Source: Chrysophaeum taylorii (lineage: Eukaryota > Sar > Pelagophyceae > Pelagomonadales > Pelagomonadaceae). From it: a DNA stretch of 64,000 nt. The stretch spans positions 409,501 through 473,500 of the forward strand of contig JAQMWT010000523.1 in the NCBI GenBank assembly GCA_029834535.1. The letters run 5' to 3'. The number at the start of each line of letters is the position of its first letter. Position 1 is the first letter of the stretch. This document shows positions 24,838 through 26,750 of this stretch, piece after piece. The notes beneath the pieces are model-generated. The model made no database searches, had not been told where the DNA came from, and saw only the letters and a program-made list of their open reading frames with translations. Position numbers and translations under genes: made by a program.

Positions 24838-24878
24838 CCTTCCTTCCTTCCTTCCCTCCCTCCCTCCCTCCCTCCCTC
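24838..24878. repeat. (CCTT)n/(CCCT)n microsatellite
   Basis: Perfect CCTT and CCCT tetranucleotides lie between the ends of RAD1 and KMO. The last two bases are part of the KMO stop codon region. Confidence 0.8.
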
Positions 24879-26262
24879 AGAGAAGGCGGCGGAGTCCCGC
24901 GGCTCCTCCCCCCAGTAGTCCAAGGTAGATGCGGCGCGAGGCGGTGGCGAAAGCTGCAAGGAGGGTCGCCACGGTGATGACCACGAGGCCAGCGCAGAGA
25001 GCGGTGAGGGCTGCTTCCTGGCGCGCGTGTCGGCGGAGGACCGCGTCGTAAGGGAGGCGCGAAAAGGTGACCATCGAGTAGAGGGGGTGCCAGCAGGTGA
25101 GGTAGGCGGAGACGATGCCCTCCAGCACCTTCCGGGCACGGTAGAGGGAGGAGGCGGTGTTGGAGGCCATGTCGCGATAATTCATGACCGCGAGCGTCGA
25201 GAGGCCGTCGGCCGCGGCGCGGCGCGCGGTGGACATTTCCTCGAAGGCAGCTCGGAGGTCGAGGGCACCTCCTTGGCGGTCGAAGATCTCACCCAGCACC
25301 AAGCAGTCTTCGAAGGCGGCATTCATGCCCTGGCCGTAAAAGGGGACAACAGCGTGCGAAGCGTCGCCGAGGCAGAGGACCGCGTCGCCCCTATGCCACG
25401 GGTTGAGCTGGACCTGGACGAGGGGGGCGGTGGGGTTTTGGAAGAAGTCGTCGACCGCTTCGGGCATCGCACCTAGAGCGTCGGGGAAAAAGTCCTCGAA
25501 AAAGATCCTAACGTCGTCGCGCGACGCTTTTTCTAGCGCTTCTATCCTGTCGAACGGCGCGAAGAGCGTCGCGGTGAACGAGCCGTCGTTATTCGGGAGG
25601 GCCGTAAGCATGAGGTCTCCGCGGGGCCAGATGTGGAGGTAGTTCGGGGGAAAGGCGTAGTCCCCCCCCTCTTTCGCCGGCATCCCGAGCTCCTTGTAGC
25701 CCTGAGAAGCGTACCAGACCCTCGAGTCGTGACGCCCTCGACGTTCCATCGCGCGTCGCGTCGCGCTAAACGCGCCGTCGCACCCGAAAATAGGGGCCTG
25801 GCCGCGTGCCCCCGACGCAAAAACAGCCGCGTCGTCGTCGTCGAGCCCCACTAACTTGTCGCGGCGAAACCGCACGCCACGGCGCGCGGCTTCTGCCGAT
25901 AGAATCGAGACGACCCGGCTCCTGCTCACGCTATAGATCGCGTCCCCGGGACCGCCGTAGGCCTGCGTCGCCGTCGAGCCGTCGGCGAGGTGGAGGAACC
26001 GCGAGTGCATCGCCACCGACTGCGCGAGCACGGTCTCGGCGAGCCCGACGCGCCCGAGCGCGCACAGCCCGCGGTGCGAAAGCGCCAAGTTTATCGACCG
26101 TTTCGTCGCGCTCGCTGCTTTGGCCAACCCCCCGTCGTCCTCCGGGGTCCACTCTTCGTCGTCGCGCATCTCGACGATCTCGACCTCGAACCCCGCCTCG
26201 GCCAGCACCATCGACGCGAGGCAGCCGCATGGCCCGCCCCCGACGACAGTCGCTTCCCTCAT
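24877..26262 (-). CDS. KMO: Kynurenine 3-monooxygenase
   Basis: A single exon of 461 residues. The N-terminal FAD site reads VVGGGPCGCLASMVLAEAG. RSINLALSHRG is the KMO signature that follows the first helix block. The second FAD motif is CLGDASHAVVPFYGQGMNAA with EDC after it. A C-terminal hydrophobic helix (LCAGLVVITVATLLAAFA) matches the membrane anchor that holds KMO in the mitochondrial outer membrane. The enzyme hydroxylates L-kynurenine to 3-hydroxykynurenine using NADPH and oxygen, in tryptophan breakdown and NAD synthesis. The start is the ATG immediately before the FAD motif. Confidence 0.95.
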   Translation of the reverse strand: MREATVVGGGPCGCLASMVLAEAGFEVEIVEMRDDEEWTPEDDGGLAKAASATKRSINLALSHRGLCALGRVGLAETVLAQSVAMHSRFLHLADGSTATQAYGGPGDAIYSVSRSRVVSILSAEAARRGVRFRRDKLVGLDDDDAAVFASGARGQAPIFGCDGAFSATRRAMERRGRHDSRVWYASQGYKELGMPAKEGGDYAFPPNYLHIWPRGDLMLTALPNNDGSFTATLFAPFDRIEALEKASRDDVRIFFEDFFPDALGAMPEAVDDFFQNPTAPLVQVQLNPWHRGDAVLCLGDASHAVVPFYGQGMNAAFEDCLVLGEIFDRQGGALDLRAAFEEMSTARRAAADGLSTLAVMNYRDMASNTASSLYRARKVLEGIVSAYLTCWHPLYSMVTFSRLPYDAVLRRHARQEAALTALCAGLVVITVATLLAAFATASRRIYLGLLGGGAAGLRRLL

Positions 26263-26355
26263 CCAACCAACCACGAAAAAGAAGAACCTTCGTTGGTCCG
26301 TTTGTTTTAGATACAACGGACGGAGGGAGTGGGAGTGGGAGCGCTCGCCAGCAGC
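26263..26355. promoter_or_regulatory. Bidirectional promoter KMO / Ubl-eL41
   Basis: 93 bp lie between divergent starts, including an A-rich run (GAAAAAGAAGAA) and GGGAGTGGGAGTGGGAG just before the Ubl ATG. It drives a ribosomal-type gene on one side. Confidence 0.5.
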
Positions 26356-26750
26356 ATGCAACTCCTCCTCAATGTCGTCGAGGGCGGCGATGCCCGGACG
26401 ATCGACGTCGACCCGGCCATGACGGTCGCCGGCATGAAGGAGCTCATCGAGGACGAGACCTTTGTTCCCGCCGACCTCCAGCGACTCACGACCGGCACCA
26501 AAACTCTTACCATGGGGACGCTCGAGGACAATGGCCTCAAAGAGGGCGATAACCTCCAGCTCCTTCTCGGCGTCGTCGGGGGGGGCGAGGCGAGTCGCTA
26601 CAAGAAGTCCACCTCGCGCATGCGCTGGAGTGAGTTTGTTTGTTTTTGTCTTCTTCTTCTTCGCAGTGACACGAACTCGCAGAGTGGAAGAAGAAGCGCA
26701 CGCGCCGCCTCCAGCGCAAGCGCCGCAAGATGCGCCAGCGCGCCAAGTAA
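26356..26750 (+). CDS. Ubiquitin-like protein fused to ribosomal protein eL41, two exons
   Basis: Exons 26356-26629 and 26683-26750 give 113 residues. The 53 bp intron has a GTGAGT donor and a CAG acceptor. Residues 1-76 are a ubiquitin-like fold starting MQLLLNV and ending LGVVGG, with Gly-Gly at positions 75-76 exactly as in ubiquitin. A 12-residue basic linker follows (GEASRYKKSTSR). Residues 89-113 are eL41: MRWKWKKK, then RKRRKMRQRAK at the end, 25 residues long and matching the human protein at 20 of 25. The intron cuts the eL41 part after MRW, so the ribosomal exon depends on the Ubl exon. Known Ub/Ubl ribosomal fusions involve eL40, eS31 and eS30. I know of none with eL41. Internal initiation at Met89 is a possible alternative route to free eL41. 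Confidence 0.85.

Follow-up and report, generated by a model that had tools for sequence, protein, structure and literature searches.

Gene structure and genomic setting

The gene examined here lies on the forward strand of a 64,000-nucleotide stretch of the Chrysophaeum taylorii genome (the window), within contig C523 of the assembly, and is composed of two exons. Exon 1 (26356..26629) encodes a ubiquitin-like (Ubl) domain, a short extension and the residues MRW, together with the first base of codon 92. The Ubl domain (residues 1-76; 26356..26583) ends in LGVVGG, has a net charge of -8, and was assigned based on a sub-cut-off match to PF00240, matches to ubiquitins in the PDB, an AF2 model and Foldseek. 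The codons for Gly75-Gly76 (26578..26583), which sit within a run of eight G, mark the putative scissile junction (cut after Gly76), as suggested by the conservation of GG in relatives. They are followed by the 12 residues GEASRYKKSTSR (26584..26619) and by the first part of ribosomal protein eL41, which comprises MRW and the first base of a Lys codon (26620..26629). A GT-AG intron of 53 nt (26630..26682; GTGAGT...CGCAG) then interrupts codon 4 of eL41 in phase 1, and exon 2 (26683..26750) completes MRWKWKKKRTRRLQRKRRKMRQRAK before a TAA stop. The spliced coding sequence of 342 nt specifies a protein of 113 amino acids that is identical throughout to the NCBI record CTAYLR_001476 of C. taylorii; the view in the initial annotation that eL41 is usually skipped by annotation does not apply in this case, given that the public record contains it.

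When 17 AG acceptors were tried with the donor at 26629/26630, only one restored the eL41 frame, the same one that is implied by the annotated protein. The gene is probably spliced in this manner in vivo, which is backed by the RNA-seq-guided annotation of C. taylorii, described as having combined RNA-seq with homology (PMC10366177). A second AG, preceded by a strong pyrimidine tract, is present at 26665-26666 (+), 16 nt ahead of the acceptor that is used; its use would cause a frameshift and destroy eL41, and alternative splicing is possible.

The eL41 portion was identified both in the assembly and in the product. A profile search of the assembly matched PF05162 at C523:436179-436247 (window 26679-26747; 32.3 bits), and Pfam placed Ribosomal_L41 (PF05162) at residues 89-113 of the fused protein (E=3.7e-6; 27.2 bits versus a cut-off of 22.3), spanning positions 1-25 of the profile, that is, its full length. 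Of its 25 residues, 20 are identical to human eL41. Taken with the junction alignment and the identity to the annotated protein, these matches bear out the original description of a Ubl ending in Gly75-Gly76, 12 further residues and a full 25-residue eL41, with a splice site after the first three residues of the latter. The ribosomal exon was also correctly described as having no leader of its own: in the frame of exon 2 there is a stop in the intron just upstream, and no Met occurs from there to the eL41 body (locus L033).

Upstream of Met1, no ATG was found on the + strand in 26263..26355, the 93-bp intergenic stretch that extends back to a divergently oriented neighbor. That neighbor (24877-26262, -) encodes a flavin-dependent monooxygenase (PF01494; NCBIfam matches all below cut-off), presumably resembling kynurenine 3-monooxygenase, and the same 93 bp separates the start codons of the two genes. 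On the other side, an 831-aa ORF with an MMS19 N-terminal domain (PF14500; 26933-29428, -) is convergent with the eL41 gene. In addition, the sequence ATGAGNGCNAARTGG had 118 matches in the assembly (58 + 60), versus 1 + 1 for the reversed control (L001-L008 at 1501-1515); it sits in a longer shared repeat at all five loci viewed, and no Rfam match for the repeat was found in the four loci tried.

Copies of eL41 and other ribosomal precursors in the assembly

The family search for eL41 across the assembly (70.8 Mb, 697 contigs) returned a single match, the Ubl-fused gene. A degenerate eL41 pattern identified six sites, of which, upon reading each of them, only the Ubl-fused gene read as eL41; an earlier version of the pattern matched a repeat family unrelated to eL41. 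No second eL41 gene was therefore found in the 70.8-Mb assembly by either approach, although a separate intact copy, which would have spoken against the fused gene as the ribosomal source, was specifically looked for. As the assembly is reported to be ~81.5% BUSCO-complete (PMC10366177), a second gene could be absent from it, and the search could overlook an eL41 gene interrupted by a further intron, so that the fused gene is likely, but not proven, to be the only copy in the genome.

Other ribosomal proteins of the ubiquitin-fusion type were also located. In C. taylorii, eS31 is made as a fusion to true ubiquitin from a gene with short introns. The same is true of eS30 (junction GGGKVHGSLARAG...; L036 1000-1690, contig C185), unlike the animal FUBI-eS30. 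The two eL40 copies (L038 and L039, on contigs C341 and C523) begin MVYDPSLAALAKTFNC with their own ATG, unlike those of most eukaryotes, and none of ten ubiquitin words turned up in any of three frames in the 1,200 bases that precede each copy. The assembly has 41 ubiquitin-family matches, none of them on the contigs of the eL40 copies, and by eye the regions upstream of the two copies are almost the same for several hundred bases.

Relatives, extension and character of the ubiquitin-like domain

Three protein searches, started from the fused query or its tail, provided 162 distinct homologues, taken as 90% cluster representatives; the total is at least 162, since 17 of the 137 matches of one search fall outside the list. 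The length window used excludes bare eL41s of 25-39 residues, and ratios of fused to unfused proteins are consequently meaningless. A strict eL41 motif was present in 128 of the 162, and the other 34, being truncated, unspliced or variant, were dropped. An alignable ubiquitin-like part (≥60 positions) was found in 80 of the 128 and was lacking in 48. The 80 fusions listed fell into two groups by identity to the C. taylorii ubiquitin: 19 near-true fusions at 62-97% and 61 divergent ones at 18-43%, with none between 43% and 62%. For the counts of GG, Arg72, Arg74 and Met a cleaned set of 58 divergent fusions was used, from which P0051 (a fragment) and P0098 and P0107 (a true ubiquitin end on unrelated upstream translation) were removed.

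Named divergent members include C. taylorii itself and Pelagophyceae sp. CCMP2097 (P0008), and a near-true fusion was identified in the haptophyte Prymnesium parvum (P0065). Aureoumbra lagunensis (P0020) also has the divergent form but stands outside the count because its model breaks off at MRWK, which may reflect an intron left unspliced. The MMETSP entries P0005 and P0017 both contain a divergent fused ORF classed as 'complete'. The existence of these fused homologues rules out chance as the source of the arrangement, which, judging from sequence comparison, appears to be common to related marine protists. Scans of viral contigs with P0002 and with alignment A1 identified no relatives.

From ASRYKK onward, the 37-residue tail behind Gly76 can be aligned with the apicomplexan eL41 chains of Toxoplasma and Plasmodium (ASRYKKSRAKMRWKWKKKRTRRLQ...; best E=1.5e-11). 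The segment ASRYKKSRAK of these chains is homologous to the 12 residues that were initially described as a linker. These residues are therefore, as read from the alignment, an N-terminal extension of a long form of eL41 and no spacer, and they would be expected to remain on the mature protein; of the two fates originally offered for them, retention is favored, and trimming of a plain linker is not. Most long eL41s without a Ubl start with M-[AGST]-H...KK (MSHGASRYKK in Theileria; MAHKSNPYKK in Perkinsus and dinoflagellates), and the fused junctions read GG|GHKSNPWKK, GG|MGHKSNPWKK, GG|AHKNNPWKK, GG|GADSRYKK and GG|GEASRYKK, so that cleavage after GG would leave an N-terminus very close to that of the unfused proteins once their Met is removed. 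In one metagenomic sequence, P0089, a divergent Ubl is joined straight to a short eL41 (GG|MRAKWKKKRTRR..., GG|MRAKW...), but this derives from a 503-base contig and needs confirmation. The second Gly is missing in P0036, P0053 and P0055 (of the 58), in P0052 and P0054 (of the 19) and, outside the count, in P0141-P0143 and P0150; the junctions of these relatives are GAG, GSG, AAG or similar, and they are perhaps uncleaved.

The Ubl domain of C. taylorii scored just below the PF00240 cut-off of 25.4 bits (24.1 for exon 1 and 23.3 for the fusion), and many of its relatives carry a precomputed PF00240 assignment; NCBIfam yielded no match. An AF2 model of the fusion, based on the 46-row alignment A1 (mean pLDDT 85.2, pTM 0.58), predicts a ubiquitin fold, an eL41 helix at residues 90-112 and, between them, a stretch of low confidence at residues 71-90 (block means 63 and 66) that would be a weak hinge. 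The best Foldseek matches to this model were ubiquitins (top TM-score 0.90 by target length; 28-36% identity among the best 50 matches), and the predicted beta-grasp domain is accordingly placed in the ubiquitin fold. It is not a canonical ubiquitin, being without near-identity (27/75 residues identical to the ubiquitin of the same genome), the LRLRGG tail and the Ile44 patch. Across the 61 divergent members listed, positions 43, 50, 56, 67 and 69 stay hydrophobic, and a loose motif, [IVL][EH][DNE]xx[FM][IVLF][PS], is found in 47 of the 61 versus 1 of the 19 near-true members. Derivation from ubiquitin or a close relative is the best reading of the domain. In a tree of the Ubl parts (64 rows and 76 columns, with 40 of the 61 divergent members, nine of the 19 near-true members, P0089 and 14 Ubls of the C. 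taylorii genome), the 40 divergent members and P0089 were separated from the others by a branch with an SH-aLRT of 89. As the columns are too few and some branches long (that of P0089 among them), this tree is compatible with a single origin of the divergent family but does not establish it.

The divergent domains are acidic. Their median net charge is -8.5 (n=60, the 61 minus P0051 only), versus 0 in the 19 near-true domains listed. For 20 further Ubl segments of the C. taylorii genome, profile-matched stretches of 47-74 residues drawn from the 23 ubiquitin-family matches that are not top-scoring, the median is also 0 (range -4 to +6). Three of the 60 divergent domains are non-negative: P0036 (0), P0098 (+9) and P0107 (+1). 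The net charge of the extension and eL41 averages about +19. The acidity may stem from common ancestry and not from selection.

A proposed eL41 precursor and its place among known fusions

Based on these analyses we propose that the gene product is a precursor of eL41 (also known as eS32) that is probably cut after Gly76 to give a 37-residue eL41, with the Ubl serving as a cis-acting, chaperone-like partner. The acidic ubiquitin-fold domain would be made first and would fold while the very basic eL41 tail emerges, shielding this short, extremely basic tail and holding it soluble. A deubiquitinase-type protease would then cleave after Gly76 and free the Ubl and the 37-residue eL41 (GEASRYKKSTSR plus 25 residues) for entry into the ribosome. 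That the Ubl folds first and is then cut off is suggested by analogy to the precedents of yeast Ub-eL40 and Ub-eS31 and of FUBI-eS30. Cleavage itself is predicted from the conservation of the GG and of the N-terminus that it would create; the protease and the chaperone role are our inference. In the divergent family the modifier surface is largely lost, the fold and the GG are kept and acidity is gained, which suggests that the Ubl has become a dedicated partner in cis and is probably not conjugated to targets as a modifier. The original proposal of a Ubl precursor processed after Gly-Gly accordingly stands with regard to the fused precursor, the conserved GG and the lack of a separate eL41 in our searches, and its processing step remains a prediction from sequence.

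Counting against a cleaved precursor are the five counted relatives without GG and the further ones outside the count, and it is conceivable, but unlikely, that the fusion stays uncleaved, with the Ubl retained on eL41 or the fusion serving a separate role. In Giardia, a Ub-eS31 whose junction is altered has been reported to stay uncleaved (PMC8122580). Set against this, GG is found at the junction in 55 of the 58 cleaned divergent fusions, despite an identity of only 18-43% to the C. taylorii ubiquitin and drift elsewhere in the domain, and in 17 of the 19 near-true fusions among the homologues listed. G75 and G76 are likewise invariant in the 46 rows of alignment A1, from which non-GG rows had been excluded beforehand. 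Moreover, an attached bulky domain should clash, given that eL41 is located at the subunit interface.

We consider it quite improbable that the Ubl is instead a true modifier, released and conjugated, for which eL41 is the carrier in the way that ubiquitin is released from Ub-eL40. The Gly-Gly end, the near-true versions of the same fusion, such as that of P. parvum, and the frequent retention of Lys27 (48/61) and Arg42 (39/61) are in its favor. However, Arg72, which sets the choice of E1, is found in only 3 of the 58 cleaned divergent fusions and Arg74 in none (0/58), and among the 61 listed Leu8 is kept in 6, Lys48 in 12, Ile44 in 4 (replaced by Val in 15) and Val70 in 5 (replaced by Leu in 28); the genome also already has 18 top-scoring ubiquitin copies. 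The poor retention of the Ile44 patch and of Arg72/Arg74 places the choice of cutting protease in doubt for the cleaved precursor as well, USP enzymes being described as generally recognizing ubiquitin and FUBI via the Ile44 patch (PMC10611586).

There is very little to recommend a third explanation, in which eL41 is made unfused, from a start at Met89 or a transcript from inside exon 1, and the Ubl is bystander coding sequence. Met89 is in frame and is the first eL41 residue in C. taylorii, but it is only the eighth ATG of the spliced coding sequence, and the upstream extension is conserved and matches apicomplexan eL41. Furthermore, 29 of the 58 divergent rows have a residue other than Met at the first position of eL41; 23 of them also lack Met in the extension, so that translation from an AUG at eL41 or shortly before it is excluded in those relatives. 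An artefact of the gene model or assembly, for which a misreading of the eight-G run could be invoked, is scarcely credible given that the same fused frame recurs in many homologues, whether they come from genomes, transcriptomes or metagenomes.

Returning to the cleaved precursor, a broader and more speculative proposal, which we advance with less than even confidence, is that pelagophytes and other protists have a ubiquitin-derived family, perhaps of single origin, whose sole job would be that of a disposable, acidic, charge-matching cis-chaperone of eL41. Such a family would have lost the signalling surface and the E1 arginines and kept the fold and the cut site, the latter having since decayed in some lineages.

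With an N-terminal Ubl, Gly-Gly at 75-76 and a ribosomal tail, the C. taylorii product has the organization of the known Ub/Ubl-ribosomal precursors and can be regarded as a little-studied counterpart to them. The initial annotation knew of no fusion to eL41, which does not hold for canonical ubiquitin, as Ub-eL41 fusions have been mentioned in print (PMC8122580, PMC11354881). The survey in the first of these, which is described as calling such fusions 'anecdotic', kept ubiquitin domains ≥80% identical to yeast ubiquitin over 80% of the length, and that threshold would leave out a domain of the C. taylorii type; the fusions share ubiquitin joined to eL41 and differ in that the C. taylorii domain is divergent (27/75). 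No description of the divergent Ubl-eL41 form was found among the titles and beginnings of abstracts of the papers listed, and no word beginning 'L41' was found in PMC6332867 on algal ubiquitin fusions.

Ub-eL40 (UBA52/UBI1) and Ub-eS31 (RPS27A/UBI3) likewise have an N-terminal ubiquitin, a Gly-Gly junction and a ribosomal tail, but their ubiquitin is canonical, and no ubiquitin was found upstream of the eL40 copies of C. taylorii. In yeast the ubiquitin moiety is reported to aid eL40 and eS31 production (PMC8122580). The Plasmodium RPS27a and RPL40 fusions are similar in that their ubiquitin moiety is described as free of the usual conservation (PMC10457151), and differ in their ribosomal proteins. 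The long-form eL41 of Toxoplasma, Plasmodium, Theileria, dinoflagellates and Perkinsus has the same extension and eL41 body, but no Ubl and its own Met start.

A parallel in design is FUBI-eS30 (FAU), in which a divergent Ubl with a C-terminal Gly-Gly precedes a small basic ribosomal protein and is cleaved off, reportedly by USP36, as is needed for 40S maturation (PMC8354635). The C. taylorii fusion differs in its ribosomal protein and Ubl sequence and is not a FUBI-eS30, since its tail is eL41 and eS30 sits behind true ubiquitin on contig C185. Precursors of the ubiquitin-ribosomal type now reach the smallest ribosomal protein. They also offer a natural experiment, in that some protists have near-true ubiquitin in the carrier position where others have a domain without an evident modifier surface; what is constant across the swap (the fold and Gly-Gly) and what is gained (acidity) hint at the purpose of such fusions, a question posed as 'chance or necessity' in the title of the review PMC8122580. 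If the proposed cis-chaperone family is real, it would represent a FUBI-like invention for another ribosomal protein.
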